From Sinanaerobacter sp. ZZT-01 (GTDB lineage: Bacteria; Bacillota; Clostridia; Peptostreptococcales; Anaerovoracaceae), in NCBI RefSeq assembly GCF_035621135.1, contig NZ_CP141728.1:2914001-2978000 (forward strand): 64,000 bases of DNA, written 5' to 3'. Position 1 is the first letter of the stretch, and each line of letters opens with the position of its first letter. This document shows, in pieces, positions 20,435 to 56,972 of the stretch. Position numbers and translations under genes: made by a program. Under the pieces are notes generated by a model. The model saw only the letters and a list, made by a program, of their open reading frames with translations. It was not told where the DNA came from and did no database searches.

Positions 20435-20730
20435 AACTTTATAATTAAATGCTATGACAGGGACAAAGTTTTAGATCAAATGCTTTCAGAGAGTTATCGT
20501 CTGGTGCGAGATAACACATTTTCTAAAAACGAGCTCACCCTTGAGCAGTCAGCTAAAAGATTTCTTAGGCGCGACCGGGTTTCTCACCGTTACATATGAG
20601 AGCGTATTCGCAGTTTTGCCGATACGATTGAGTGGGTATTTTCATACCAACGAGAGTGGTACCACGGATGCTTTTTAACAGCCTTCGTCTCTTTGCACAA
20701 AAGTGCATGAGTCGAAGGCTGATTTTTTTT
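20435..20730 (+). promoter_or_regulatory. Leucine T-box leader with transcription terminator
   Basis: A tRNA-sensing leader before leuA. Stem I shows GGGACAAAG and the CAGAGAGTTATC...GATAAC arm (20489-20515), and the specifier stretch GAGCTCACCC places a CTC (Leu) specifier codon at 20534-20536. The T-box sequence GAGTGGTACCACGG is at 20654-20667. Then comes a terminator stem CAGCCTTCG / CGAAGGCTG (20679-20721) followed by eight Ts, which the antiterminator would disrupt. Known T-boxes of this layout allow transcription when the matching tRNA is uncharged, so leucine shortage should switch on leuACDB. The tRNA-Leu(GAG) at 45840 is the expected partner. Confidence 0.95.
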
Positions 20731-31154: not shown

Positions 31155-32021
31155 CTACTTAACAGTTAAATGAAAAATCTTTCTTTTTGCTGCAACATTT
31201 AATTCCCTGTTGCATTTTTGACCTGTAAATCTTACAGTCGGGTTGTTTTGATAAGCTGACAAATAATCGGTTTCTCCTTCAATCGTTTCTTCTTTCCATT
31301 TTGCCTTGCTGCAACCAGTAAGCATGAATGCAATTTTCGGACACATGTGCACAATGCTCTCTTTTGAAAGTACACGTTCCAACTCTTTGATGAGAGGGTA
31401 TGTAAACCAATCTACGATTTTTTTCGCAAATCTCGGACCAATGATATTAACTCCCCCAGATGAATCCGAATAAAAAAATAAGTGGCATCCCGCTTTTTCA
31501 GCCGCAAGAAAATAGGTAATTAAATCTGTTTTTGCTTTTTCACATACCTGTTTCATAAGATCTGGTTTCGCCACACATGTCATAAAAACCTTTTGAATGT
31601 CCATTAAGGAATTAAGCATGTCAAATATTCCTCTTATTTCTAAGGCAACCGTTTCACCTTGTTCGGTCAATATCCTACAAGCTTTTAAAAGCTCTGCCAT
31701 TCTTCCGTTTGATGGGTCCATTCCAGGCAAAGTCAAAAATTCTTCCGTTTCTTTTAAACAATCTACACTTTTTCGAGGACCAAGCGGAGATTCATCATAT
31801 TTAATCATCCCTCCCAAATTTTCAGCTTCTACACAAGTGTCAAAGGGAAGTTTACAAAAACTGCTTTTTCTTTCTTGTTTAATTTGAAGAGCTAGTTTTA
31901 CCATATCTTCAGCATGCAAGTATAAATCTGGTAGCTTCATTCCTAGGGAAGCTGCGTACTCAGGTGTAATTCCCCGATAATCAGCATATTGACATTTAAA
32001 ATCAACTAATTTAGCCATCAT
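31155..32021 (-). CDS. UroD/MtaA-superfamily protein, probable zinc-dependent methyltransferase-like
   Basis: A 288-residue member of the uroporphyrinogen decarboxylase superfamily. This superfamily includes true UroD and zinc-dependent methylcobamide:coenzyme methyltransferases (MtaA, MtbA, CmuA). HMCPK (about 245) and CN in FTGQKCN near the C-terminus look like the HxC...C zinc ligands of the methyltransferases, which UroD lacks. The chain is about 50 residues shorter than MtaA. ATG at 32021 follows AAAGGAGG by five bases. No corrinoid protein or MtaB gene is near, so its methyl donor and acceptor are unknown. Confidence 0.75.
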   Translation of the reverse strand: MMAKLVDFKCQYADYRGITPEYAASLGMKLPDLYLHAEDMVKLALQIKQERKSSFCKLPFDTCVEAENLGGMIKYDESPLGPRKSVDCLKETEEFLTLPGMDPSNGRMAELLKACRILTEQGETVALEIRGIFDMLNSLMDIQKVFMTCVAKPDLMKQVCEKAKTDLITYFLAAEKAGCHLFFYSDSSGGVNIIGPRFAKKIVDWFTYPLIKELERVLSKESIVHMCPKIAFMLTGCSKAKWKEETIEGETDYLSAYQNNPTVRFTGQKCNRELNVAAKRKIFHLTVK

Positions 32022-32206
32022 CAAATCCTCCTTTTTCAATCATTCACACTTCCTTCATTTGCTAAATTGTTTTGATAACCAATCGGTATTATGAATTAAA
32101 ACCCTGCTGGATTCTCCTAATTCGTTTTCTCAATTGGCTTAATACGTTTATTATATACTGTTAAAATATTATTTCCATAAGATTCAGAAATTTCGATTAA
32201 AGTTTT

Positions 32207-33997
32207 TCATCTGCGCTCTTCGCTAATCCAAAAAGAAACGCCTGTTTGTGTATTCATAATTCCATATTGGAGATGATGCATATCCAGTATTTGTTTTACG
32301 ATTGCGAGTCCTAAACCGGTCCCCTCAATATTCTCCGCTTCACTCTCATCCCTTTTTCTCGATTCTTCCGCCTTGTAAAATGGTTCCCAAATATGATCCA
32401 TTTTTTCCTCCGGAATTGGCTCGCCCGTATCTTCTATTTGAAACCCTGATTTCTCTATTCTTACGGTTATCTCTCCCCCTTTTATACAATAACGCAGGCT
32501 ATTTGAGAAAAGATTATGAAGAACCTTTGTCATTTGCACGCTGTCACACGTTAAGATGAATAAGTCATTTTCTTCTATATGCAACAAAATCTCTCTTTCC
32601 ATAAGCATCCGATTGTATTTTAAACTCTCTTGTTTTATAAGATCATTCATCTTTATTTTTTCTAAATGAAGTGACTGCACTCCAGATTCCAGTTTAGATA
32701 ATGTCAGCATTTCCATTATCATATGATCCATCCTCTGCACTTCTCCTGCAATGACATCCAGATATTCGTCTTTTTTAAAATTGATATTTTCCTTTAGCGC
32801 TTCTGTATAGGCACTGATAAGTGCTACCGGTGTTTTCAAGTCGTGTGCAATTGCATCCGTAAACCTGCGTCTGTTCACTTCAAGTGCCTCTTGTCTTTTG
32901 TAAATTTCCCAAAGCTTGCGTGACAGAAATATCCACGTAAACAGGAGTAAGAGGAACGAGGATAAATAAACCAAAACTAGGGATTTAAAAGTATATAGCC
33001 AAGGGTTAAAGACCCCTTCCACTACAAAATAGAAACCCTTCCCATCCATGATTTCTCTGTCTTTAAAATAGCAAATATCGGTTACCTTAACCTGCAAAAA
33101 CCCTTCTGCATAATTGTAAACGTAACGATCCTTTAAGTTGATAGGATTCAGTACGGAAGGATCTGCTGCTGCTTTTGCTAAGGATGATTTTTTTAAATTC
33201 TCAGAATCTGACAAAGGAAGATAGTCTAATCCATTTTTCACAGTATAACTATTTTCAAGTGAACAATCTATAAAGTTTCTTAGTTCAAAATCATCTATAT
33301 TTTCCGGATGGAAGATATATTCTTTCTCCAATTGCTCATTTAATTTTCGGGAAGAAGAAGCTATCGAACCACTCCCATCTTCTAATGATGTATAAGTAAT
33401 ATCATTTATCTCATATTCTTCTTCTGTCACAATGATCTTCTTTGGAACAATTTCATTATCCTTTATGTATATATCCGCTGTAATCTTATACTCTTTTACT
33501 AAATCGCCCGTTTTTACCTTCTCATCTAAGGAATGTGGACTATACTGCCAATACTGTTCTAGCTCATTTATTTCGTCAGGTTTCATATAGTCATCCAAGC
33601 AGATTCCAAAGGCTTGCGTTGTCCAGTCGCCGTATTCTGTCTGAATATGCTCATTTATTACAAGATATTCTCCACTCTTACTGATTAAGTCTTTATTCTC
33701 ATCAAAAATAGCACAAGCTCCATATAAAAGCGGCTCTCCCATACTGCTTGCAATCGAATTGCAGATTTTTGAAATCGCATAACGATTTACCAAGCTGGGA
33801 TCGGCTTCGTATTCGAACATACTTTTCTGGGCCATGTACACTGCATTGCTTAATTTGTTGGTATTAACAAAGGCAGTTCTTGACACTACAATCTGCTCAT
33901 AGATCACGGTAAAAATCATCATGGTAATCAAATAAAAAATCAAGAGACTAATTAAAGTTCTCACGTATATATTTTTCTTTTCATATCTATTTTTCAT
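32207..33997 (-). CDS. Sensor histidine kinase with large external domain
   Basis: Membrane kinase of 596 residues. Helix 1 is at about 12-33, then about 300 outer residues with no domain I recognise, then helix 2 at about 332-358. The kinase core has the phospho-acceptor His385 in AIAHDLKTPVAL, the N box NLFSNSLRY, the G1 box EDTGEPIP, and the G2 box EGTGLGLAIV. Start overlaps the response regulator stop by 11 bases, so the pair is co-expressed and works together. The signal sensed is unknown. Confidence 0.92.
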   Translation of the reverse strand: MKNRYEKKNIYVRTLISLLIFYLITMMIFTVIYEQIVVSRTAFVNTNKLSNAVYMAQKSMFEYEADPSLVNRYAISKICNSIASSMGEPLLYGACAIFDENKDLISKSGEYLVINEHIQTEYGDWTTQAFGICLDDYMKPDEINELEQYWQYSPHSLDEKVKTGDLVKEYKITADIYIKDNEIVPKKIIVTEEEYEINDITYTSLEDGSGSIASSSRKLNEQLEKEYIFHPENIDDFELRNFIDCSLENSYTVKNGLDYLPLSDSENLKKSSLAKAAADPSVLNPINLKDRYVYNYAEGFLQVKVTDICYFKDREIMDGKGFYFVVEGVFNPWLYTFKSLVLVYLSSFLLLLFTWIFLSRKLWEIYKRQEALEVNRRRFTDAIAHDLKTPVALISAYTEALKENINFKKDEYLDVIAGEVQRMDHMIMEMLTLSKLESGVQSLHLEKIKMNDLIKQESLKYNRMLMEREILLHIEENDLFILTCDSVQMTKVLHNLFSNSLRYCIKGGEITVRIEKSGFQIEDTGEPIPEEKMDHIWEPFYKAEESRKRDESEAENIEGTGLGLAIVKQILDMHHLQYGIMNTQTGVSFWISEERR

Positions 33998-34667
33998 GGT
34001 TCACCTCAAATTTATATCCTGTTTTTACAATTGTTTTTATATAAGAATCGTATGGCTTAATCGCTTTTCTCAGCTTTTTCACATGACTGTCCACAACACG
34101 GTCGCTCCCATCAAAAGCATGGTCCCATACCTGATTCAACAGCTGCTCTCTGGTTACTATCCGTTTTTCATTTCTAATAAAAAAAAGTAATATCTTATAC
34201 TCTAGATTGGGTAGATTAATATAATTGTCATCGATTTTTATCTCTTTTCTTTCAGGATAAATGGTAATCCCTCCTGCCTGAAGCTTCTCACTAACTACCC
34301 TGCCTGCAGTTCGATTTATAAGTGCAGTGGACTTTGCAAATAAGACTGCAAGTGAAAACGGTTTTGTAACATAGTCATCTGCTCCGAGCTCATATCCGTA
34401 AAGCTTATCTTCTTCGTCTGTCTTGGCAGTTAAAAAAATAATGGGAACCTCCGAGTCTCTTCGTACCTTCTTACATAAAGAAAATCCGTCCAGCTTTGGC
34501 ATCATTACATCGAGCAAGATGAGATCAAATTCTTGCAAAGAAAGAACTTCCAGTGCTTGCAATCCATTATTTGCACAAACTAGATTGCAGCCTTTTACTT
34601 CAAAATAGTCTTTTATGATATTCTGCATTTTTAATTCATCCTCTACCAATAATATTTTATAGGTCAT
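33987..34667 (-). CDS. OmpR/PhoB-family response regulator
   Basis: DNA-binding partner of the sensor kinase. The 226 residues comprise a receiver domain with the acidic pair ED at 10-11, the phospho-acceptor Asp53 in ILLDVMMPKLDG, and Lys in VTKPFS, then a winged-helix effector domain from about 130 (REQLLNQVWDHAFDGSDRVVDSHVKKLRKAI). GAAGGAGG precedes the ATG. A TATAAT with upstream CGG lies 29 bp before the start codon. Targets are not evident from neighbouring genes. Confidence 0.95.
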   Translation of the reverse strand: MTYKILLVEDELKMQNIIKDYFEVKGCNLVCANNGLQALEVLSLQEFDLILLDVMMPKLDGFSLCKKVRRDSEVPIIFLTAKTDEEDKLYGYELGADDYVTKPFSLAVLFAKSTALINRTAGRVVSEKLQAGGITIYPERKEIKIDDNYINLPNLEYKILLFFIRNEKRIVTREQLLNQVWDHAFDGSDRVVDSHVKKLRKAIKPYDSYIKTIVKTGYKFEVNHEK

Positions 34668-34759
34668 CTCATTACCTCCTTCTGCCGTATATCTTATTAT
34701 ACCGATATGTTCTCTTTATGTCCTAAAGAAATCTTTTACTGTAAATGAAATCAGAGAAT

Positions 34760-34796
34760 AAAAAAATAAGACCACAATAAAAAAATGCGGTCTTAT
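34760..34796 (-). terminator. Terminator after the 34.85 kb small gene
   Basis: Minus-strand stem ATAAGACCGCA / TGTGGTCTTAT with one G-U pair and a T-rich loop, followed by six Ts. It separates the small gene from the two-component operon. Confidence 0.8.
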
Positions 34797-34844
34797 AGAT
34801 TTTTTTGTTAAATATTCCATATTTCTTTTTACATTCGCCCGGCT

Positions 34845-35147
34845 TCAGTCAGCTGCTGTCTCCCATGGAGTATAAACACAATAGCACTCTCTTGTTTCAC
34901 CCATATAAATCCAAACATTATCTCCCATCTCTAATCTCTCATCAAACGTTTGATTCGGAATAAAAAGTTTAACTGAAACTCTTTTTGTCCCTCGAAGGGT
35001 CAGCCCTTCCGGACTGGGGTTGCGCTGAAAGCTCTTAAGCTTATTTCCTAAGTCGGAAATTCCTGTTTCCTTTGACAAGGCCGGAACAACCTTGTCTGTT
35101 TCCGCATACACAATGTTATCCGGATTTTTAAACCACTGAATGTTCAT
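34845..35147 (-). CDS. Hypothetical protein of 100 residues
   Basis: No family recognised. The product is soluble and charged, starts MNIQWFKNPDNIVYAE and ends YCVYTPWETAAD, with a cysteine pair CYC near the C-terminus. The start is ATG at 35147, because the upstream in-frame ATG overlaps its own GGAGG. It is the first gene downstream of the cobalamin riboswitch on the same strand, but a terminator and about 150 bases lie between them. A near-perfect palindrome at 35195-35213 sits 48 bp before the start and may be an operator. Confidence 0.6.
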   Translation of the reverse strand: MNIQWFKNPDNIVYAETDKVVPALSKETGISDLGNKLKSFQRNPSPEGLTLRGTKRVSVKLFIPNQTFDERLEMGDNVWIYMGETRECYCVYTPWETAAD

Positions 35148-35194
35148 ACTAGAATCCTCCATTTATTTTATATCATAAAAAAGTGAATAGAATG

Positions 35195-35213
35195 AAATCG
35201 AAAATTTCGATTT
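35195..35213. repeat. Palindrome upstream of the 100-residue hypothetical gene
   Basis: AAATCGAAA-A-TTTCGATTT is a 9+1+9 near-perfect palindrome. Part of it, AAAATTTCGATT, recurs at the end of the pseudogene (36145-36156). It could be an operator for the hypothetical gene. Confidence 0.45.
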
Positions 35214-35297
35214 ACAAAGGCTCCGCTTTATGCAGATCATATTAAAACTTCTGCCCAATTATGTAGAAACAGCTTATCGACAAGTCATGTTGTAGCA

Positions 35298-35330
35298 TAA
35301 AAAAACTGTGACTAGATGAAAGTCACAGTT
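35298..35330 (-). terminator. Terminator of the cobalamin riboswitch transcript
   Basis: Minus-strand stem AACTGTGACT / AGTCACAGTT with a seven-base loop, followed by TTTTTTT. It stands 74 bases after the riboswitch P1 stem and before any sizable gene. Confidence 0.85.
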
Positions 35331-35403
35331 CCGTTTTTAACTGGATCTATTTATGCACATTACACACTACAATACAATTTGTTTACCATAGCTTCCTGCG
35401 CTT

Positions 35404-35592
35404 AAAACTTATGCATGTCTTCTGACTCGTGTATCATCACCCTTTGCCGACCTTCCCAAGTTTTACTCAGTGGTTGCTACTTTCCATAGCTGCGGCTTGG
35501 ATTCCTCACTTACAGCGGCGGTACCGTCCCGGATTTGCACCGGAGTTCCATCTTAGCCATCAGCAACTTTCTACTGATGGAACATAAACTTT
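35404..35592 (-). promoter_or_regulatory. Cobalamin riboswitch
   Basis: An adenosylcobalamin-type aptamer on the minus strand. It shows CCGGTGCAAATCCGGGACGG, CCGCCGCTGTAA, CCACTG, GGGAAGG, and the B12-box AGTCAGAAGACATGC (about 35413-35427). Flanks AAAGTTTATG and CATAAGTTTT can pair over ten bases as P1 with two wobble pairs. These elements in this order define the family. A nine-codon ORF (35360-35389) and a terminator follow; the next gene is a 100-residue hypothetical protein. Confidence 0.95.
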
Positions 35593-35610
35593 ACTATTTT
35601 ATTTATATTC

Positions 35611-35639
35611 AGTATCTCATTTTCTTACTCGCTTGTCAA
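35611..35639 (-). promoter_or_regulatory. Promoter for the cobalamin riboswitch transcript
   Basis: TTGACA (35634-35639) and GATACT (35611-35616) with a 17-base spacer on the minus strand, ending just before the riboswitch P1 stem. Confidence 0.75.
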
Positions 35640-35694
35640 ACTAGCTTTCAATTCCCCTTTCAATGAAAGAACACTCTGCGTATTACACAGCTTA

Positions 35695-35723
35695 TTGACA
35701 ACCTAACTATCCTATGCTATTCT
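35695..35723 (+). promoter_or_regulatory. Promoter for the Cys/His-rich pseudogene
   Basis: TTGACA (35695-35700) and TATTCT (35718-35723) with a 17-base spacer. Downstream GTTAG-tttaag-CTAAC (35732-35747) may be an operator. It diverges from the riboswitch promoter 56 bp away. Confidence 0.65.
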
Positions 35724-35812
35724 ATTTAGATTGTTAGTTTAAGCTAACTTTAAATTTAATAATTATTAAGAATTAGTTTTGAATTACCTGCTTAAATAGA
35801 AAGGATTATATT

Positions 35813-36158
35813 ATGAATACCACACAAAAAGGCTGCTGCTGCCAAAGCAACCATGAAAGCACTTACGAAAACGAGCATAGTTGCTGTGGATGTAATTGCG
35901 GACATCATCAAAAAAAAATGCAAATATCGGAAGAAGAAACGGAATTCCTAAAACAATTAGCACAGATTCCTTATTTACCTTTGGCCCGCTTTATATTGAA
36001 AAGCAGCAAGTCAAGCCATTTAGAATCAGTAGCGCTCGCTCCGGTCTGTAGCACAAGGAAAAGAGAACGAGGACTTCTTATTTGATATTCCCTTCATAGA
36101 ATTTGGCAGCATTGCATTAACCTATGCGGGGCAGATAGTAATTGAAAATTTCGATTAA
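35813..36158 (+). pseudogene. Decayed gene for a Cys/His-rich metal-binding-like protein
   Basis: The open frame from ATG 35813 gives a Cys/His-rich N-terminus (CCCQ, SCCGCNCGHHQ) and then LAQIPYLPLARFILKSSKSSH and ESVALAPV. It then departs into a short unrelated tail ending at 36085. In the +1 frame from about 36048, the DNA encodes EDFLFDIPFIEFGSIALTY and ends at TAA 36158, which reads like the C-terminus of the same kind of protein. The simplest view is an internal deletion with frameshift that removed a central part. The family is unnamed to me. The promoter and ribosome site are still intact. Confidence 0.65.
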
Positions 36159-36234
36159 CAATATCTTTGTGTTACACAGCGTAAATAAACACGTAACGTA
36201 CCTATGAAATATGTATGGAAAAAAGTAAAGAAAT

Positions 36235-39000
36235 TTAGGAAAGAATCGTCACCCGACTTCCGCCGGATTTTTCTTTCGTTATGACAATTTGTTTATCGAT
36301 CTTTTCCTTAAGTTCATTTACATGGGAAATGATACCGACAAGTCGCTTGCCTTCCGTAAGGCCTGCCAGTACTTTAACTGCTTGCTGCAATGAATCCTCG
36401 TCTAAAGAACCGAATCCTTCATCGACGAACATGGAATCTAAACAGATTCCTCCTGCGTAGGACTGAATTTCATCTGAAAGTCCAAGGGCTAGTGAAAGCG
36501 ATGCTTTAAAAGATTCTCCTCCCGATAAAGACTTGACACTGCGCTCTGTCCCGTTGTAATGATCAATCACATTTAATTCAAGTCCGCTTTGACTCCGGTT
36601 GTTGTCTGCTTCGATTCCTCTCTTCAGTTCATATTGACCGCTGGACATTTTCATAAATCTCGTATTTGCGCGAGCGATAACCCGATCAAAGTAGGTCATC
36701 TGTATATAAGTCTCCAGCATGATTTTTTCTTTTCCGCTTATATTTCCGTTTGCCGTGTTTGAAAGGGATTTTACCCATCCCCATCTAGTTTCCAGCCGAG
36801 CCAGTTCTCTGCTCTGTCGATGGATGTTATGAAGAGCTGAATGATTGCTGCTGCTTCGGGAAGTGAGCGCAGTCAAAATATGATTTAGAGATTGCTTATC
36901 TAGAAGCAATGCCGCCTGTTTTTCTTTTTCTAAATTAATATCAATACAGTCCGCATCTTTAAGTTGTTCTTTTTGTGCCCGAATCTTCCCTTGCAATCCG
37001 TCTATCTGAGATTTCATTTCCTGATGCTCTCTTCGTGCAAGCTCCAGCGCTTTTTCCATTGCTGTTCTTTTCCTTTTCATCTCTTGGATTATCTTTTCTG
37101 CATCAGATTTACTTTCATATTCTAATTTCGACGATTGCTTTTTCCATACAGCAGTCATGCTCTCGATTTCTGCATAAAGTGTAGAAGTATACTTGTCTAG
37201 ACCCGATATTTCATCTTCCCATTCTCTGATTTTCGTCTCTCCTATCGGAATCTCATTTTCAATCTTAATTTTTTCTTTAACCTTTTTCTCTTCTATCGAA
37301 ATCTTCTCTTCAAAGTCTGCAATCGCTGCTTCTGCTTTCTCCAAAGCATGTGAAAGTCGTTCTGGAACTGCATCATAATTATACACACCAATAAGATCCG
37401 TGCAATTCTTTTCAATCTCAGACTTCTTTGAAAAAATTTGACCGGAAAGTTCTCCTGCCGCTGTACTTGCATCAGCCGCTCTCTTCTGCATTTTCTCATT
37501 GTTTTTCTTGGCTTTTTCAAGCTCTGCTTCGGTAGGAGCACCTTTGGATTTTACGGCTAAACAAGGATGTTCCACAGCACCGCAAACCGGACATGCTTCT
37601 CCTTCTTGCAGCATCTCGGCTAAAATTCCTGCCTGTTCATCAAGGAAAGCTCTGTTTTTATTACTATAGTCTCGTTGCGCACGCTCTGCCACTTCTAGAG
37701 CATCTCTGTATTCTTCCTGTGCCTCTTTTTGCTTTTTCTCTAATTTCATACAGCTATTAAGGCTATTAGCGAGTGCATTTAAACGTTCAAGCCGCTGCCT
37801 TTCATTCTCATATTGATTGATCAGTTTTTCCTTCAAGGTTTCACAATCTTTTAGGTTATTTAACTTTTTTTTCAAGGCCATAAGTTGCAGCATTTCTTCT
37901 TCTAACTTTTCTTTTTTTTGATCCAGATACTTGCTCTTTTCTAAAAAGGTGCGATTCATCTGTTCTAATTTTTCTTTTGAAGCATCCAATTCATCATATT
38001 GATGAAGCTGGCTGCGAACCATCGTTATTCTTTCACTAAGCTGCTCATGCTCTGCTTGTCTTGATTGCTCAGATTCCAATATCGTAAATAAGTGCTGTTC
38101 TTCTTTTTCTTTTTGAAGCAGCATTTCTTCTGTACTGGAAAGGTTTTTTTTCACTTTTTCAATTGCAATTGCCTTTCCTAACTGCGTACTAATTTCCGCT
38201 AGTTGCTCTTCCACTTTTTCAAGCATGTTTTTCTTTTGCTTCTCCGCTTCACAATCCTTTTGAATCAATTTTTCAATCAATGCGATCGTCTCTTCTGAAG
38301 TAAGCTCTCCTGCCTTTGCCTGTTCAAACTTCGCATACAATTCATCATCCTCTTCGCAGCAAATGCCGGAAACATACTGACTAATCCCACTTTTAAGGGA
38401 TTCACACTGACTCTTTAAACTACCCGATTCTGCTTTGATCCGTTCTTGCAGTGTCTGGTATCGCTTCGTTTGGAAAATTTGGCGAAATATAGATTTTCGT
38501 TCTTCAGTCGATGCAAGCAGAAGCTTAAGGAATTCACCTTGTGCAATCATGGTAATGCGTGAAAACTGATGATAATCAATCCCCATAATATCAATAATGG
38601 CAGCAGTCACTTCCTTTGTTTTGGTAATTACCAGCCCGTCAGGGTAAATCAATTCAGCTTCTGCTTTCTGAGTTGTTGTTCCTTCCCCTCGTTTTGAAAG
38701 ACGCTCATATTCCGGGTTTCGCTTCACTCGATATCTTTTTTTTCTGTACTCAAAAATAAGCTCTACCTCAGTCGGCGTATTTATTTCAGCATATTTGGAA
38801 CGCAGCATCGAAACTTCGCGACTGCCCCCGCTCGCCTCCCCATATAGGGCATAAGTGATGGCATCAAATATAGTTGTTTTTCCTGCGCCGGTGTCTCCTG
38901 TAATAAGGTAAAGGCCACTTTGTCCAATCTTTTCCATGTCGAGCGTCGTAGTTCCTGCATAGGGACCAAACCCAGAAATGGTCAGTTTAAGCGGTCTCAT
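36235..39000 (-). CDS. sbcC: Exonuclease SbcCD subunit C (Rad50-like ATPase)
   Basis: Large ATPase that works with SbcD to cut DNA hairpins and process double-strand ends. The 921 residues have Walker A GDTGAGKTT (about 35-43), two long coiled-coil arms, a zinc hook CPVC at about 470-473, the ABC signature KSLSGGESFKASLSLALG and Walker B DSMFVDEGFGSLDE near the C-terminus. The start is taken as ATG 39000, which overlaps the sbcD stop as ATGA and follows GGGAGG; an ATG five codons earlier lacks this spacing. Confidence 0.96.
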   Translation of the reverse strand: MRPLKLTISGFGPYAGTTTLDMEKIGQSGLYLITGDTGAGKTTIFDAITYALYGEASGGSREVSMLRSKYAEINTPTEVELIFEYRKKRYRVKRNPEYERLSKRGEGTTTQKAEAELIYPDGLVITKTKEVTAAIIDIMGIDYHQFSRITMIAQGEFLKLLLASTEERKSIFRQIFQTKRYQTLQERIKAESGSLKSQCESLKSGISQYVSGICCEEDDELYAKFEQAKAGELTSEETIALIEKLIQKDCEAEKQKKNMLEKVEEQLAEISTQLGKAIAIEKVKKNLSSTEEMLLQKEKEEQHLFTILESEQSRQAEHEQLSERITMVRSQLHQYDELDASKEKLEQMNRTFLEKSKYLDQKKEKLEEEMLQLMALKKKLNNLKDCETLKEKLINQYENERQRLERLNALANSLNSCMKLEKKQKEAQEEYRDALEVAERAQRDYSNKNRAFLDEQAGILAEMLQEGEACPVCGAVEHPCLAVKSKGAPTEAELEKAKKNNEKMQKRAADASTAAGELSGQIFSKKSEIEKNCTDLIGVYNYDAVPERLSHALEKAEAAIADFEEKISIEEKKVKEKIKIENEIPIGETKIREWEDEISGLDKYTSTLYAEIESMTAVWKKQSSKLEYESKSDAEKIIQEMKRKRTAMEKALELARREHQEMKSQIDGLQGKIRAQKEQLKDADCIDINLEKEKQAALLLDKQSLNHILTALTSRSSSNHSALHNIHRQSRELARLETRWGWVKSLSNTANGNISGKEKIMLETYIQMTYFDRVIARANTRFMKMSSGQYELKRGIEADNNRSQSGLELNVIDHYNGTERSVKSLSGGESFKASLSLALGLSDEIQSYAGGICLDSMFVDEGFGSLDEDSLQQAVKVLAGLTEGKRLVGIISHVNELKEKIDKQIVITKEKSGGSRVTILS

Positions 39001-40136
39001 ATTTCGTCCTCCCAAATTTTTCGTATCATATCAGAAGTAAATGACTGTTGTTCCTCTCGCATCGGTTGATTATTTTGTTTTTCATAGAATTCACAAAAAA
39101 GCTCTAGTGGTGTTTTTTGTTCGACACTGTCATCTCCCAAAATCTCAAAATGAAAACGTGTGCGTTTATTATCGTAATCCAGTTTCATTAGGTTATGATA
39201 GATTGTACGCAGTTTTCCGACTGCATCGGGAATGTCCTCTTCATCGGTTAAGGTAATATGTACATAGTCCTCCCGGTAACTGGTTTTTTCATAAAAGCTT
39301 CTTTGGGTAATTTCTGTATACGTTCCCCTTATTTCTTTCAGATCTCTTTTCGGGATTAATGGAATGGTATCTATAAAAATACTGCCCTTCTCACAAAGAG
39401 TAACAACTGTAACTGCCTTTTTCCGATCGGCTTCCGAAAAAGAATACTTCAACGGAGTGCCACAATATCGAACCGTATTACTTCCCACATTTTGCGGATT
39501 GTGAAGATGTCCCAAAGCCACATAATCGAAACCCTTAAAAGCTGCAGCATCCACATTATCGGAACCACCTACAGAAATATCCTCAGAATCGCAACGAGAC
39601 GCTCCTGTAACGAACTGATGCGTAATAAGGAGATTGCGTTCCGTCTCATTCACAGACATGTTCTGAACGGCAATAGAAATTGCATCGGTGTAGGATGTAA
39701 TCTCTTCTTCCTCATAAAATCGTTTTACATGAGAAGGTTTCAGAAATGGAAGCATATAAATATTTACTTCACCATAGGGGTCTGATAAAACGATTGGTTC
39801 GACTTTGCCATCATATACAGGTGCTAAATAGATACCGCTTTTATCCATTAAACGTGAGCCAAACGAAATTCGTTCAGCTGAATCGTGATTTCCACTGATT
39901 ACAAATACTTTAAGATTTCGCAGAGAAAGAGAGACCAGAAAAGAATCAAACAGCTGAACTGCCTCAGCAGGCGGGACGGTTTTATCATACACATCTCCTG
40001 CAATGATAACCCCGTCAGGCTTTTCATTATCAATGATTTTGATGATTTGATCCAATATATATTTTTGATCCTCTAACATAGAAAATTCATGGACACGCTT
40101 TCCAAGATGAAGGTCAGATAAGTGAATTAGTTTCAT
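38997..40136 (-). CDS. sbcD: Exonuclease SbcCD subunit D (Mre11-like nuclease)
   Basis: Metallophosphoesterase partner of SbcC. The 379 residues contain all five motifs: LSDLHLGKRVHE (about 6-17), IAGDVYDKTVPP, SGNHDSAERI (about 80-89), LLITHQFVTG, and ALGHLHNPQNVG. The capping domain follows. GGGAGAAGAACGAGC lies just before the ATG. The stop overlaps sbcC by four bases, so the subunits are translationally coupled. Confidence 0.96.
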   Translation of the reverse strand: MKLIHLSDLHLGKRVHEFSMLEDQKYILDQIIKIIDNEKPDGVIIAGDVYDKTVPPAEAVQLFDSFLVSLSLRNLKVFVISGNHDSAERISFGSRLMDKSGIYLAPVYDGKVEPIVLSDPYGEVNIYMLPFLKPSHVKRFYEEEEITSYTDAISIAVQNMSVNETERNLLITHQFVTGASRCDSEDISVGGSDNVDAAAFKGFDYVALGHLHNPQNVGSNTVRYCGTPLKYSFSEADRKKAVTVVTLCEKGSIFIDTIPLIPKRDLKEIRGTYTEITQRSFYEKTSYREDYVHITLTDEEDIPDAVGKLRTIYHNLMKLDYDNKRTRFHFEILGDDSVEQKTPLELFCEFYEKQNNQPMREEQQSFTSDMIRKIWEDEI

Positions 40137-40151
40137 GCTCGTTCTTCTCCC

Positions 40152-40601
40152 TTACTCAATAACTGCTTCTTTTGTGTACGTCATTGGTACATAACGAATG
40201 CCATCCGCAAGGCATTCTTCGCAATCAGCAGCAAATCCTAAGTGCAGATACACAGAGACAGCGTAAGGTGATGAATTAACCGTTATTTTATCGTTATTAT
40301 TATTTTGAAGTACTCGGTTAAAAAGTGCTTTTCCAATTCCCTGCCTATGATAATTGCTATCTACAAAGAATAAAGTGATATGTTTTCTGTTGTTTCTAGT
40401 TGCAATCATGCCCACAAGGTCACTGTTAATGTATGCACCAAGCATTTCAATTTCATTAATAAAATCTTTATCATCTAGAATTTTCATAAAAGAGCTTACC
40501 CCTTTTTCAGAAAAATCCGCAGCTTCATATTGCATAAATGTTCTTTTTATGAGTAACAGGGCATCGCGGTTTTTGTCAGCTTCTATTTTCTCAATTCTCA
40601 T
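40152..40601 (-). CDS. GNAT-family N-acetyltransferase
   Basis: A 149-residue acetyltransferase with the CoA-binding motif YHRQGIGKALFNRV (about 90-103) and a following NSSPYAVSVYLHLGF block. Substrate unknown. The frame is open 17 codons further upstream, but ATG 40601 follows AAGGAG by six bases. It is 15 bp upstream of sbcD on the same strand, so sbcDC may be co-transcribed with it. Confidence 0.85.
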   Translation of the reverse strand: MRIEKIEADKNRDALLLIKRTFMQYEAADFSEKGVSSFMKILDDKDFINEIEMLGAYINSDLVGMIATRNNRKHITLFFVDSNYHRQGIGKALFNRVLQNNNNDKITVNSSPYAVSVYLHLGFAADCEECLADGIRYVPMTYTKEAVIE

Positions 40602-40733
40602 ATGCATCTCCTTATCGAATCGCATTTCTGCGCTCTGACGGCGTTGTATCAAATGTTGTTCCTCTGGCTTGACACCTAAAAACTATAAGTTTTCCGAACA
40701 GGTTTATCCATCTTAAAAAAATAGAGAAGTTTA

Positions 40734-40964
40734 TCAACGCACCAGATTTTCTGCTATGATACACATATCTTCATACCATTTTTTAAAAGTTGCATGTCAA
40801 TTTGCTTCTTTTAGTACAAATGTAATCTTAATCTTTTGCTTTTTCCATATTTGTGGATTCACCACTCCATCTTTTACAAAATAAGCATAATTTCGCTCTT
40901 CTTTCCATTTACTAAATAACTTGTTTTCCAGATATGGTATATCAAAATCATTTAATTCTTCCAT
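40734..40964 (-). pseudogene. Gene remnant with in-frame TGA
   Basis: ATG 40964 opens a 55-codon frame (MEELNDFDIPYLENKLF..., KWKEERNYAYFVKDG, KIKITFVLKEAN) that stops at TGA 40797. The same frame then continues for 20 codons (HATFKKWYEDMCIIAENLVR) to TGA and TAA at 40734. The N-terminal stretch recalls clostridial proteins of over 200 residues with an FLLKEAN-type segment, so this looks like a heavily shortened remnant rather than a gene. Ribosome site AAAGAGATGAATT is weak. Not named with confidence. Confidence 0.45.
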
Positions 40965-41013
40965 AATTCATCTCTTTCTATATGCAATGAACTTTATCCT
41001 GTAAGCCTGAACT

Positions 41014-41283
41014 TTAGTTGCTTCCAACTATATAGAGCTGTATGAAATCTTCTTCATCGCACATTCCACATCCCACTTTGATCTGTACTTCTGATTGAAC
41101 ATGCTTCTTTATTTTAGATGTAATTTTATTAAGAACTTGTATCGGTGTATCATGGCTGCAAGATACATACACTAAAACATTCGGCACATCAAGAATTTCA
41201 GAATTAAATTGTTCATTTTGAAAAACATGTTGCATCTTATAATCCAGTGCTGTAAGTGTAGACGAAGATACCTGCACCTTCAT
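41014..41283 (-). CDS. Solo domain resembling the FtsZ C-terminal (tubulin C-like) domain
   Basis: An 89-residue product with no strong ribosome site. The segment DVPNVLVYVSCSHDTPIQVL...KITSKIKKHVQ...VQIKVGCGMCDEEDFIQLYIVGS follows, in order and spacing, the second half of FtsZ, where a GVLVNITGG strand, a helix with two to three turns, then NIIFGxxxDxxxxDxxRVTVIATG occur. The GTPase half is missing. CGMC is extra. This is a fold-level guess from pattern only. It lies 89 bp after an MBL hydrolase gene and could be co-transcribed with it. Confidence 0.45.
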   Translation of the reverse strand: MKVQVSSSTLTALDYKMQHVFQNEQFNSEILDVPNVLVYVSCSHDTPIQVLNKITSKIKKHVQSEVQIKVGCGMCDEEDFIQLYIVGSN

Positions 41284-41372
41284 AAAGATCAGGTGGAGCT
41301 GAAACTAAAACCAGCTGGGGACTTGTATACAACATCAAAATACAAGTACTGTTTTAAACATCATTGAAGGGA

Positions 41373-42134
41373 TTAAAGCCATATGCCCCAATCACCATAT
41401 TTAAAGATCCCGCTTCCATGATGTAGTTTACCCTCTGCCTTCAATTGTTCGAATGCATCCCTCATTCGAATAAGTATTTCAGGTCCAATATCCAACGTGT
41501 GATGGGCAGGAAATACATTCTTTACTGGGAGTTTCGCAATTTTTTTTAAAGACAAAAGATAAGCTTCCGGATCAGTAGACGGATAGTATGCAAATAATGT
41601 GTCTTTATAAACCAAATCACCTGTAAACAGATACCCTCGTTCTTTTTCAAAAAAACACATATGTCCGGGTGAATGGCCGGGTGTATGCAACACAGAAACG
41701 GAACGATTACCAAGATCAATCGTATCATGATCGCTCAACAATTTTATTGGCGTACCCTGAAAGAAATCGTAGGTGTTAACATCATAACCTTCCGGTAAAT
41801 CACATCGGTCGATGACCATTTCCCTAATCTGCTCTATAGTAAGTGGAAATTCTCCATTTAGCCAATTCAGCTCATCCTTATGAGCATAAAAATCAGGAAA
41901 ATACTTATGTCCACCAATATGATCCCAATGAACGTGCGTTGCCACCGCTGTAACCGGCTTGTCCGTTAACTTGATTACCTCGTCATAAATATTGCTGATA
42001 CCCAACCCTGTATCAATCAAAAGGCTGCGCTCAGAACCATTAAGTAAATAGCAATGCGTTTCCTCCCAATGCCGATACTCACTAATAATGTATGTATCTT
42101 TGTCAATCTGATCTATTGTAAACCAATCACTCAT
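41373..42134 (-). CDS. MBL-fold hydrolase
   Basis: Metallo-beta-lactamase-fold enzyme of 253 residues. The metal motif ATHVHWDHIGGH is at about 66-76, with later ligands in HTPGHSPGHM (about 149-158), FTGDLVY (about 169) and FPAHH (about 208). The family includes lactonases, arylsulphatases and thiol hydrolases; none is favoured by sequence. GGAGGAATTGATTA precedes the ATG. The downstream gene is the FtsZ-C-like domain. Confidence 0.88.
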   Translation of the reverse strand: MSDWFTIDQIDKDTYIISEYRHWEETHCYLLNGSERSLLIDTGLGISNIYDEVIKLTDKPVTAVATHVHWDHIGGHKYFPDFYAHKDELNWLNGEFPLTIEQIREMVIDRCDLPEGYDVNTYDFFQGTPIKLLSDHDTIDLGNRSVSVLHTPGHSPGHMCFFEKERGYLFTGDLVYKDTLFAYYPSTDPEAYLLSLKKIAKLPVKNVFPAHHTLDIGPEILIRMRDAFEQLKAEGKLHHGSGIFKYGDWGIWL

Positions 42135-42268
42135 TAATCAATTCCTCCCTCTTATTATTTAAATTCTCTGTTTATCGTTTAAACCAATTATATGAAGAAT
42201 GGAAAGTTCAGAACTTCTTTTAATATCACTGCATAAGTTCTTTCTGCAGAAAGAACATCTTAATGAAT

Positions 42269-42460
42269 TTAAATTAATTCCTGAACTCTTCCCACTTGTC
42301 CATCTGTTAACATTACTTTGATACCATGTGGGTGAAAAGCACTGTTAGTCAATATTTTTTCGACTGTTCCCTCTGTAAGTTTTCCAGTTTTCTGGTCCGC
42401 TTTTAATATAATTTTTACTTTTGTACCAATTTTAACATTCGCTCTATTTTGTCCGTTCAT
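42269..42460 (-). CDS. ywbE: YwbE-family protein
   Basis: A 63-residue protein of unknown function, conserved in Firmicutes (Pfam DUF2196). It begins MNGQNRANVKIG and has IILKADQKTGKLTEGTV and FHPHGIKVMLTDGQVGRV, the family core. The frame extends 20 codons upstream with a low-complexity Asn/Gln/Gly stretch, but GGAGGAGGGAAG directly before ATG 42460 and the family length support the shorter form. Confidence 0.88.
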   Translation of the reverse strand: MNGQNRANVKIGTKVKIILKADQKTGKLTEGTVEKILTNSAFHPHGIKVMLTDGQVGRVQELI

Positions 42461-42529
42461 CTTCCCTCCTCCATTTTGAGTTGCAGTTTCTCCTTGGGCA
42501 GTCTGATTGAAATTCTCCATAAATATAAC

Positions 42530-43255
42530 TTACAACAGTGCCCATTTTTTTGTTTTTGGATTGTATTCCAAATACCGCCCGATTCCCATTATATTACGCT
42601 GTCGATCCAATGATTTGTGAATATTATCCTCACAGAGGCCTACATTTTTAGCTGGATACATTCGAACTCCTGTATGAATGGAGGATACCGTACAGTTTTC
42701 AAAATCGAATGTACCTCCGCCAATGAAAAAATGATAAAGTTCGCTTAATATATCATCAGGAATTGGTGTCATACTCCTTTTGCGACCCATAAATACAGAT
42801 CGAATTTTTTGCTCAATGACCGTTTTATAAGCTTTCACATCTCTCATATATATCTTTACCCAATATTCATCATCATGGCAAAGGTACAAATATTCATTAT
42901 TTAGAGACGGAAAAAAGCTCTTTGTCAACGGCTTCTTCAAATGTGCAGCAAACAACAGCTCTGAAAGTTCTTCATCTGTTATTTTATTAAGATCACCTTC
43001 CGATTGGAAATCTGCCCAGCAGAAGTCACCGTAATTATATACATCCTCCGAAAGAAACAAAGGCATATCTTCTTGAGAGATGTATTCAAGACATGTATGA
43101 AGATCAAATTGTGCGTTTTCAGGAGTCCCCTTCAGCATTAAAATCCCGTTCGGAATTTGCGGTAATGCATTGATAAACACTCGGAATTCAACTCCTGTCG
43201 TAAAAACATACCCCTCTGCTTCGTTAATGTTAATATGGCATGGATAATATTTCAT
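42530..43255 (-). CDS. Uncharacterised protein of 241 residues
   Basis: I do not recognise a family. The product is soluble, with no signal peptide or membrane helix. It is rich in aromatic and acidic residues (YEYISQEDMPLFL-like and DVYNYGDFCWADF) and has a basic stretch MGRKRSM near the middle. GAAAGGAAAGCTAG precedes the ATG. It lies just upstream of ywbE on the same strand, and downstream of nagZ with a 36-bp gap, so the three may be one unit. Confidence 0.7.
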   Translation of the reverse strand: MKYYPCHININEAEGYVFTTGVEFRVFINALPQIPNGILMLKGTPENAQFDLHTCLEYISQEDMPLFLSEDVYNYGDFCWADFQSEGDLNKITDEELSELLFAAHLKKPLTKSFFPSLNNEYLYLCHDDEYWVKIYMRDVKAYKTVIEQKIRSVFMGRKRSMTPIPDDILSELYHFFIGGGTFDFENCTVSSIHTGVRMYPAKNVGLCEDNIHKSLDRQRNIMGIGRYLEYNPKTKKWALL

Positions 43256-43290
43256 AGAATTCTAGCTTTCCTTTCTTTTACAAAACAGAC

Positions 43291-44511
43291 TCACTTTAGT
43301 AAATCATATTTTTCTTTTAAAGACAAGATACGCAATACACTTTTATCGATTCGCTTCTCACTGATTTTTCCGCCTTTGACCGCGCTGTAAATTCCCTCGT
43401 AAGCTTCTTTGAAATTTTCAGGCATCAAGATAATATCAGCTCCACCTAAAATAGCCTTAACGGCAGCAGCATTAGTTGTATACTCTTGTGTAATTGCTCC
43501 CATTGCCATTGAATCAGTAATAACGACTCCATTATAGTTCATTTCTCCTCGCAGCTTCTCCTCAATCATTTCATTGGAAAGTGAAGATGGTAGATCATCA
43601 GAAGTCACGTTCGGTGCCGTAATATGTGAAATCATAATCATATCTGCATCTTTGGAAGCACTCATAAACGGAATCAGCTCGCATTCTTTTAATTCTTCCC
43701 ATGTCTTTTCTGTGGATACAAATCCCTTATGCGTATCGCCTGTAGTATCACCATGACCGGGAAAATGTTTTATACAGCTCATAATTCCAGCTTTATGAAA
43801 TCCCTCAATTTCTGCCGACACCATTTTTGCTACAAGTATGGGATCACTGCCAAAAGAGCGATTTCCAATCACAATATTTTTGGGATTTGTATTCACATCA
43901 GCAACCGGAGCAAAATTTAAATTAAATTTATATTGTTTTAAGTAAGACCCGATTGTAAAGCCTACATTTTTTGCACTCTCACTGTCTTCCATCGCTCCAA
44001 TTTGGGCCATGCTTTCATACGTCGTTACGTCAAATTCCTTTGAATTTGCAATTCTAGACACAGGGCCGCCTTCTTCATCAATTCCTACAAATAATGGGAT
44101 TTTGCTTTCACCCTGCATTTCATCAATAAACCGAGTCAATTGGATAGGTGATAAAATATTTTTTTGGAAAATTACAATGCCACCAGCATGGTATTGCTGT
44201 AATGATTCAGTCATTTGACTGCTCAATTCTGTTACATCATAATTTGAAACATCGCTGATTTGCTCTGCTGTCAAATTTGGATTAAGTGAATCTGGACGAA
44301 TCATAAATAGCTGACCAACTTTTTCCTCTAATGTCATGCTACTCAGCAACTTCTCTGCTTTGCAACGTGTTTTATTAAGATGCATATCCGGTATATTATT
44401 TGCAGAATCCGAATCTTCTCCTTTTGCCGGACTGCATGAGGCAAGAGTAAAGATTGCAATGAGAATCAATACATTAATAACATTTTTTAAACTTTTTGTC
44501 TTAATATCCAT
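43291..44511 (-). CDS. nagZ: Beta-N-acetylhexosaminidase, GH3 lipoprotein
   Basis: Cell-surface glycosidase of glycoside hydrolase family 3, expected to remove GlcNAc from muropeptides. The 406 residues start with a lipoprotein signal ending in LASC (Cys about 27), then the barrel with KHFPGHGDTTGDTHKG (acid/base His-Asp dyad) and the nucleophile Asp in VVITDSMAMGAI. It is the single-domain NagZ form, and Bacillus NagZ is also a lipoprotein. GGAGACGGT precedes ATG 44511; an earlier ATG lies six codons upstream. No murein recycling partners are next to it. Confidence 0.9.
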   Translation of the reverse strand: MDIKTKSLKNVINVLILIAIFTLASCSPAKGEDSDSANNIPDMHLNKTRCKAEKLLSSMTLEEKVGQLFMIRPDSLNPNLTAEQISDVSNYDVTELSSQMTESLQQYHAGGIVIFQKNILSPIQLTRFIDEMQGESKIPLFVGIDEEGGPVSRIANSKEFDVTTYESMAQIGAMEDSESAKNVGFTIGSYLKQYKFNLNFAPVADVNTNPKNIVIGNRSFGSDPILVAKMVSAEIEGFHKAGIMSCIKHFPGHGDTTGDTHKGFVSTEKTWEELKECELIPFMSASKDADMIMISHITAPNVTSDDLPSSLSNEMIEEKLRGEMNYNGVVITDSMAMGAITQEYTTNAAAVKAILGGADIILMPENFKEAYEGIYSAVKGGKISEKRIDKSVLRILSLKEKYDLLK

Positions 44512-44614
44512 ACCGTCTCCTATTTTCATCTTAAGCTGAGCAGTAAATGTTCTCAGATGAAACTTTAGTTAAGTCGCTTTGTGTTATGCCTAAAGTTCTA
44601 GTAAAATTTTCAAT

Positions 44615-45025
44615 TTATACAGGTTGGATTAAATGATGTTCAAATAAGGTGTCAAACGTATTTACTGCACCGCCATGCTCAACAATTTTACCATCTACAA
44701 TCTTATCTATGTCTACTCCTGTGAAAGCCAATTTTTTATTTGTGGGCTTTATCCCAATCCATTCCCCCTTATGTGTTCCTTCCATAATGAATTCAGAAAT
44801 TACAAAATCACCATCAGAATATTGGCGAATCATTTTCATCGTATAATCAGGATAGGTCTTTTTTACATCTGCAAGATGCTCTCTCATGCCTCGCAATCCA
44901 ATTGGTATTATTTTTTCTCCAATTTTCAAAACACAATCTTCAGATATGTATTTTGACAGTTCTTCAAGTCGATTTTCAGAAATGATTGTCTCGTAGAAAT
45001 ATTTTACAATGTCTTTATTTGTCAT
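44615..45025 (-). CDS. SnoaL-like/ester cyclase-family protein
   Basis: A 136-residue NTF2-fold protein of the SnoaL-like polyketide-cyclase superfamily. It starts MTNKDIVKYFYETIISENRL, has the core LRGMREHLADVKKTYPDYTMKM and GEWIGIKPTNKKLAFTGVDI, and ends with DGKIVEHGGAVN. Real function is unknown; many such proteins bind or isomerise small compounds. GAGGAGGG precedes ATG 45025. Confidence 0.82.
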   Translation of the reverse strand: MTNKDIVKYFYETIISENRLEELSKYISEDCVLKIGEKIIPIGLRGMREHLADVKKTYPDYTMKMIRQYSDGDFVISEFIMEGTHKGEWIGIKPTNKKLAFTGVDIDKIVDGKIVEHGGAVNTFDTLFEHHLIQPV

Positions 45026-45097
45026 TTTATCCCTCCTCAAATCTCAATTTTACAAATTATTTTTATACATATTCTTAACTCACACATGGAGTCATGT

Positions 45098-45673
45098 TTA
45101 TAATGCTTGAATCTCTGTTATTGGAATGACCGGATCAGGCACGTTTGGATGTCTTCCAAGTATCTTTTCCATCCAGATCATATCATACCAGTTGCCAAAT
45201 TTATAACCGCATTTTGTAAAGTGAGCTACCTTTGAATACCCTAAATGTTCATGGAAAATCGCGCTTGTATTACTGAGATACACATTTTTAACAGAGGTAT
45301 ATGCAATGCAGGCGTTCAAGTTGATAATGTTCTGACGTCTAAGGATATCCTCTAAAGTAAGATATAGCTTTTTGCCTAAACCCTTCCCCCTGCAATCTTG
45401 CTTCAGATAGACGGTGGTTTCAGCAGCCCAATTATATGCCTCACGTCCTTTAAATGCCGATGCATATGCATATCCAACAATGTGCTTCTCTTCCAATATT
45501 ACGATGTAGGGATACATCTGCAGAGTGTCCTTGATTCGCCGTGAAAACTCAGTAATAGATGGGATCTCATATTCAAAAGAGATAACAGTATCTGTAACAT
45601 AAGGGGAATAAATTTTTAAAATTTCTTCTGCATCCGCCTCCGTTGCCATCCTGATCGAGACGTTTGTGTTCAC
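45098..45673 (-). CDS. GNAT acetyltransferase, phosphinothricin N-acetyltransferase-like
   Basis: A 191-residue acetyltransferase with IRMATEADAEEILKIYSPYV at the N-terminus, CoA loop QDCRGKGLGKKLY (about 92-104), and GYKFGNWYDMIWMEK at the C-terminus. These match the PAT/Bar-like subgroup that acetylates phosphinothricin, methionine sulphoximine or similar amines. The GTG at 45673 follows GAAGG by eight bases and is preferred over an ATG six codons earlier that lacks a site. Confidence 0.85.
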   Translation of the reverse strand: MNTNVSIRMATEADAEEILKIYSPYVTDTVISFEYEIPSITEFSRRIKDTLQMYPYIVILEEKHIVGYAYASAFKGREAYNWAAETTVYLKQDCRGKGLGKKLYLTLEDILRRQNIINLNACIAYTSVKNVYLSNTSAIFHEHLGYSKVAHFTKCGYKFGNWYDMIWMEKILGRHPNVPDPVIPITEIQAL

Positions 45674-45797
45674 TATAAGCCCTTCTTTCATTTGATTACT
45701 AACAATATTATATTTATATAACTAATCCGCTGCGTCCTGCCTATGTATAACGCAATAATATTTAAAATAATTACATTCTGCTTTTCTTCATAAAACG

Positions 45798-45838
45798 AAA
45801 AAGTCATGTGTGAGGTAAATCCTCATACATGACTTTTT
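45798..45838 (-). terminator. Terminator after tRNA-Leu(GAG)
   Basis: Stem AAAAAGTCATGTATGAGG / CCTCACACATGACTTTTT (17 paired positions of 18) with a five-base loop, beginning two bases after the encoded CCA of the tRNA. Confidence 0.9.
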
Positions 45839-45839
45839 T

Positions 45840-45924
45840 TGGTGCGGTCGAAGGGACTTGAACCCTTACGGTGTTACCCACACGGCCCTCAACCGTGCGC
45901 GTCTGCCGATTCCGCCACGACCGC
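45840..45924 (-). tRNA. tRNA-Leu, anticodon GAG
   Basis: Class II tRNA of 85 bases with encoded CCA. Acceptor GCGGTCG pairs with CGACCGC; the anticodon arm CACGG-TTGAGGG-CCGTG gives anticodon GAG, reading CUC/CUU; a long variable arm follows. GAG matches the CTC specifier of the leuA T-box leader. Confidence 0.97.
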
Positions 45925-56785: not shown

Positions 56786-56972
56786 AAAAATAGAAAATCC
56801 CGAATGTGTCGTCAGGCCACTAATTCACACCCTATCTAGTGATAGGTGGGTTATCTGTTTCGAACTTCTGTCTTCCACTCAAGGGAGGCTTGACATAGGT
56901 ATCGAAAACGCGAAGTCCCGTGAACATAATGTAGGTTAAATTACATAACCTTAACGAACACCTCAGGATCAT
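56786..56972 (-). ncRNA. ssrS: 6S RNA
   Basis: Small RNA that binds housekeeping RNA polymerase and lowers its activity in slow growth. The minus strand has ATCCTGAGGTGTTCGTTAAGG (56953-56968 region) at the 5' end and GACGACACATTCGGGAT at the 3' end (56798-56814). The latter matches the E. coli 6S stretch GACGACACAUUC, and the two ends pair to close the rod. A TATAAT lies just upstream (56979-56984), and T-rich DNA follows the 3' end. It fills most of the 411-bp gap before fhs. The exact ends are estimates. Confidence 0.85.

Follow-up and report, generated by a model that had tools for sequence, protein, structure and literature searches.

A cobalamin riboswitch without a named B12 gene behind it

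Why does a complete cobalamin riboswitch, carrying its own terminator, stand in front of a gene that belongs to no named B12 family? The locus lies in a window (the whole stretch of DNA analysed here, 64,000 nucleotides, positions 2914001-2978000 of the genome contig NZ_CP141728.1) of Sinanaerobacter sp. ZZT-01, whose genome is a single contig of 3.37 Mb with 14 cobalamin aptamers (RF00174) in total. All the elements are on the minus strand and follow one another in the direction of transcription:

35611-35639, minus strand: candidate promoter, TTGACA-17-GATACT with an extended -10 (TG before the second hexamer), 10 of 12 consensus matches
35395-35602, minus strand: cobalamin riboswitch aptamer (RF00174), full-length covariance-model match
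35326-35343, minus strand: candidate antiterminator hairpin CAGUU-AAAAACGG-AACUG, a recurrent motif, mutually exclusive with the terminator, weak at a predicted -4.3 kcal/mol
35302-35332, minus strand: intrinsic terminator, the apparent expression platform, with a 12-pair stem and then a T tract (same arms and T tract in Anaerovorax sp. IOR16)
35156-35160, minus strand: Shine-Dalgarno motif GGAGG, from the sequence
34845-35147, minus strand: gene of a conserved 100-residue protein (homology, selection, AlphaFold2 model)
34766-34796, minus strand: terminator after the small gene, stem-loop of -13.6 kcal/mol and then a T tract

The aptamer matches model positions 1-189 of RF00174 with 102.8 bits (gathering score 31.5, E 1.3e-24), in agreement with the full cobalamin aptamer that a preliminary description of this DNA had placed at 35404-35592. 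It aligns with the aptamer of the closest relative, Anaerovorax sp. IOR16 (contig NZ_JADQTL010000005.1), a member of the same genus as the window genome. In the predicted fold a candidate hairpin for the L5-L13 kissing loop is at the right place, and the loop-loop pairing, judged by eye only, looked short. Corrinoid binding and repression of the downstream gene are the probable function of the riboswitch. The good promoter also described there has its 10 matches and its extended -10, but the scanned stretch contains 11 such sites against 11.9 expected in shuffles, so that the promoter alone says little.

Downstream of the riboswitch come, in this order, an ORF of no recognised family, a response regulator, a histidine kinase and a URO-D family gene. 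Family searches of the downstream ORFs found no named B12 or cobalt-transport family gene directly after the riboswitch, and the first ORF is indeed, as had been noted, a 100-residue protein, with no Pfam or NCBIfam match. The earlier statement that no cobalt transport or B12 gene follows nevertheless holds for family names only: in its behaviour the small gene is itself like one of the B12 regulon. We consider it very probable, judging from sequence comparison, that the locus is an ordinary transcriptional corrinoid riboswitch over a one-gene unit, and that it yields a soluble protein of the B12 regulon, as yet uncharacterised, which probably acts as a partner of the PF04071 domain in corrinoid handling. 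The switch itself is textbook, but it leads to a protein family that neither Pfam nor NCBIfam models and whose links to B12 are its riboswitch, its gene neighbours and its fusion to another domain.

Recurrence of the riboswitch and the small gene in relatives

Comparison of the locus in relatives, as the preliminary description had proposed, gave a clear outcome. Of 296 genomes searched in the same taxonomic family, 66 carry the small gene, in 70 copies altogether. For at least 36 of these copies (in at least 34 of the 66 genomes and at least 12 of the 18 genera) an RF00174 aptamer lies on the same strand, 89-305 nt upstream of the gene. Five further copies have one at a greater distance, 1.7-2.4 kb; the other 29 of the 70 have none within 4 kb among the matches listed. 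At random positions only about 0.05 gene-aptamer pairs would be expected (372 aptamers, 147 Mb, kinship ignored). A B12 aptamer directly upstream of the small gene is thus a recurrent arrangement, and we take the switch to be an ordinary one because the same pair recurs across many related bacteria; since relatives show the pair, the puzzle of the missing B12 gene dissolves. The IOR16 locus repeats the whole arrangement: aptamer, terminator with the same arms, gene and a trailing hairpin with a T tract.

A second list, of 54 named loci, overlaps the 296-genome set. An aptamer is found upstream on the same strand in 22 of them (within 466 nt in 20), and 13 further loci (L049, L052, L053, L060, L063, L066, L070, L076, L077, L082, L087, L091 and L094) lie beside corrinoid-related genes, as read from gene clusters and their Pfam representatives. 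On this reading the remaining 19 showed neither an aptamer nor a recognised corrinoid neighbour, three of them being near a contig start with less than 700 nt of upstream sequence.

The hosts belong to several genera of Clostridia from the gut, the rumen and the environment, and corrinoid competition shapes gut communities. Cultured carriers include Emergencia timonensis, Flavonifractor plautii and Clostridium aminobutyricum. Four copies of the small gene are present in F. plautii ATCC 29863 (L053, L056, L061 and L076).

Corrinoid-related neighbours and the PF04071 domain

In other genomes, the neighbours of the small gene include CbiQ, an ECF S component, CbiK, FecCD and Peripla_BP_2, together with SLH, prenyltransferase-like and DUF4430 surface proteins, which may resemble transcobalamin. 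These labels derive from Pfam scans of one or two representatives of each cluster, and shared SLH repeats may be what holds cluster 3 together. At two unlinked loci a DUF2284 predicted metal-binding protein is encoded directly upstream of the small gene (L149 6254-6859 and L095 684-1199). The 13 other aptamers of the window genome, whose surroundings were read from translations without a Pfam run, precede cobalt transport and synthesis genes, BtuFCD-like operons with nitrogenase-like proteins, and large surface proteins. In two of its B12-aptamer operons (L134 and L140), the translations pair NifH-like and nitrogenase-like proteins with apparent BtuFCD genes.

The closest association is with PF04071, a zf-like, Cys-rich small domain. 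It is fused in frame to the small gene in 9 genomes, the matched parts being 24-33 nt apart. Five of the fusions (L048, L052, L054, L098 and L149) were read as proteins and the rest were recognised from the frame and the open-frame length. In four more genomes a PF04071 gene lies 42-430 nt from the small gene. PF04071 is present in 55 of the 66 genomes with the small gene versus 91 of the 230 without it (Fisher 2e-10, kinship ignored). The window protein itself is free of the domain: it does not match the Pfam model, which only fused relatives match, in their C-terminal half, and the window genome encodes PF04071 elsewhere (C1:2234-2482), at a site without an adjoining aptamer. When the fused protein was modelled, the mean pLDDT was 69.2 overall and the PF04071 half came out poor.

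Long PF04071 proteins, examples chosen by ORF length from 146 genomes and not a survey, place the domain in corrinoid surroundings as well. At L145 (938-1996) it is joined to an ABC ATPase, and CbiD follows; at L146 (1590-2456) it is joined to a HAD phosphatase, with a CobQ-like gene and CbiC ahead of it. A long frame at L143 was discarded as a fusion, an equally long frame overlapping it on the other strand. The idea that PF04071 might be the C-terminal extension of archaeal CobD found no support in the open-licence literature, where we found no mention of PF04071 or COG2158 either.

The most likely broad role of the small protein is in taking up or making corrinoids, or in cobalt/corrinoid handling, together with a protein of the Cys-rich PF04071 domain family. 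More tentatively, and with less confidence than we would give to an even chance, the family may be a new component, dedicated to anaerobic corrinoid metabolism and acting with PF04071, for example a cobalt/corrinoid carrier or a reductase partner, with a fold unmatched among solved structures and its own B12 riboswitch in many gut and rumen Clostridia. Taken together, the small protein and PF04071 are a direct lead, and one open to testing, to a step that is missing from the picture of corrinoid handling.

The main rival to a role in corrinoid handling is that the protein helps a B12-independent bypass, or a general stress response, and is made when B12 runs out. B12 riboswitches do control B12-independent isozymes such as MetE (a riboswitch on metE is named in PMC9600662), and the 19 named loci without a recognised corrinoid neighbour would fit. 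We judge this unlikely, though still worth weighing, in view of the fusion and co-occurrence with PF04071, of neighbours such as CbiQ, CbiK and FecCD, and of the link of the domain to CbiD.

The terminator as probable expression platform

The strong terminator previously described at 35298-35330 is confirmed as a 12-pair stem and T tract at 35302-35332. It lies 62 nt beyond the Rfam end of the aptamer, and the small gene begins 150 nt further on; terminator-like sites in the scanned stretch number 7, against 2.5 expected in shuffles. Among the 21 aptamer-to-gene intervals compared (the window and 20 loci), 20 contain an intrinsic terminator versus 0.38 expected in shuffles, the exception being L061. 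The segment ATCCAGTTAAAnACGGAACTGTGACT, before and into the terminator, is one base apart between the window and IOR16, while the sequence from the aptamer to this segment has drifted. The terminator has the look of an expression platform belonging to the riboswitch, not of the end of a stand-alone RNA.

A motif made of C(A/G)G, an A-rich tract and ACGG precedes the 5' arm of the terminator in 15 of the 20 terminator-bearing intervals (a raw count), and is missing from L067, L074, L083, L085 and L096. Its CAG can therefore pair with the CUG of the arm, in competition with the terminator. The same motif and a terminator follow 6 of the 13 other B12 aptamers of the window genome, and at L055 both sides of the pairing have changed, CGG facing CCG. 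Tested across loci, the pairing holds in 69 of 90 cells in register, where the core pairs are forced by the anchor. Most shifted registers give 17-32 of 88-90, though a shift of +3 still gives 52 of 90; of the 45 cells at the three positions left unforced, 24 pair. Predicted energies range from -1.2 to -7.3 kcal/mol across loci, and the hairpin is absent from the predicted minimum-energy fold of the whole window leader. This test is suggestive only. Between aptamer and gene there is a terminator as platform, and a candidate competing hairpin that is supported but weak.

The switch would then work as follows. With corrinoid plentiful, the aptamer would bind it, the terminator at 35302-35332 would form and transcription would stop. 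With corrinoid scarce, the candidate hairpin at 35326-35343 would sequester the 5' arm of the terminator and let the polymerase read through, the 100-residue protein would be made from the GGAGG...ATG start at 35147, and the transcript would end at 34766-34796. We infer the direction of the switch, off with B12, because terminating platforms have precedent in working cobalamin riboswitches: in the available part of PMC9600662, 37 of 38 functional platforms, working in B. subtilis, have a predicted terminator. Five cobalamin riboswitches likewise end in predicted terminators in the accessible part of PMC4285132, where one operon rises 346-fold on corrinoid starvation. The likeness of the window to these systems comprises the full-length aptamer, the intrinsic terminator and the gene; it differs only in that the gene is uncharacterised, and there is otherwise nothing unusual in it. 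Control of the unknown protein by read-through, one of the options first raised, is well supported, with riboswitch, terminator and gene recurring together.

Riboswitch RNAs that act in trans are known, among them Rli55 of Listeria and EutX of Enterococcus. The terminated leader could likewise be the product itself, a B12-dependent small RNA beside which the small gene would be incidental, and the position of a strong terminator so soon after the aptamer, with the gene well beyond it, speaks for this. The reading keeps some place, since high B12 would always yield a terminated leader of about 300 nt. We regard it as very improbable: the gene follows the aptamer too often among relatives, and terminators of this kind also stand before other genes of the same genome. 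A permissive scan of 34700-36200 with all Rfam families (E up to 1; the ANTAR hairpin may be absent from Rfam) matched only the cobalamin aptamer, and gave the short-RNA option of the preliminary description no support.

A probable one-gene unit

A terminator follows the small gene at 34766-34796, and the gene is therefore a one-gene unit. The riboswitch could still have its targets among the two-component or URO-D/MtaA-like genes beyond (31155-34667), reached by antisense action or by read-through. A URO-D family gene lies beyond the small gene in IOR16 too, and the family includes methylcobalamin methyltransferases. Against this stand the terminator after the small gene, with a hairpin and T tract likewise in IOR16, and the fact that no recognised gene is transcribed against the aptamer, so that we give such targets very little credence. 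The antisense-acting cobalamin riboswitch of Listeria pocR, as described in the portion of PMC9943018 available, shares with the window a B12 aptamer with its own transcript end; its aptamer lies at the 3' end of the target on the opposite strand, whereas that of the window is upstream of the gene and in line with it.

The URO-D family gene of the window (31155-32039, minus strand) best resembles methylcobalamin:CoM methyltransferase models, with all matches below the curated cut-offs. Its IOR16 relative comes after the small gene, behind the hairpin; in the window the two-component system (32207-34667) stands between.

The 100-residue protein

The ORF is open from 35162, and the start behind GGAGG, at 35147, gives 100 residues. 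An alignment of 55 homologues over about 97 columns has P44, G53, R56, P64, M74, G75 and G83 invariant. Between the window and IOR16 genes there are 13, 14 and 46 differences at codon positions 1, 2 and 3 over 98 codons, with a dN of 0.14 and a dS of 2.7 (saturated); on this sequence comparison the gene is under purifying selection. That the riboswitch is left over from a lost gene had been offered as an option; on this reading a B12 gene was lost and the small ORF stands there by chance. In its favour are the lack of a named B12 gene downstream, and a two-component system and about 10 kb upstream that are present in the window but not at the IOR16 locus. It is scarcely credible, however, because the pair recurs in at least 12 of the 18 genera and the gene is under purifying selection, the aptamer being full length and the terminator arms and gene conserved in IOR16.

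AlphaFold2 gave a confident alpha-beta model of the protein (mean pLDDT 90.1). Foldseek searches of this model against PDB and BFVD returned no match at E 0.001 or better, and a likeness to RNase Sa, the best VIA-align rows (Z 3.7, rmsd 3.6, 70 residues), was too weak to use. Among the 55 aligned homologues, seven families gave hits with E no higher than 0.1 (0.00032 at best), none of them in more than two homologues, and these hits were judged to be chance. No sequence relative was found in PDB (best E 0.2) and no match among PHROGs or plasmids, and no signal peptide or membrane segment was obvious by eye. We did not find the family described in the open-licence literature; subscription papers, including early comparative studies of B12 regulons, were outside this scope and may mention it. 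An unannotated 9.6 kb record named 'Bacteriophage sp.' (MT836596.1) contains a homologue of 38% identity at 3527-3808, and may be a misplaced bacterial contig.

Surroundings of the locus

The divergent neighbouring ORF (35813-36085, plus strand) encodes 90 residues and is Cys-rich. Its supposed decay could not be confirmed, its first 78 residues having no relative in 60 other related genomes searched. Further upstream, the stretch with the SbcCD genes (35602-45843) has been either inserted in the window genome or lost from IOR16. In IOR16 a tRNA lies 65 nt before the aptamer, and in the window a tRNA-like match of equal score lies about 10 kb off, across that same stretch. The window also contains a T-box leader (20445-20695, plus strand) and a 6S RNA (56793-56972, minus strand).
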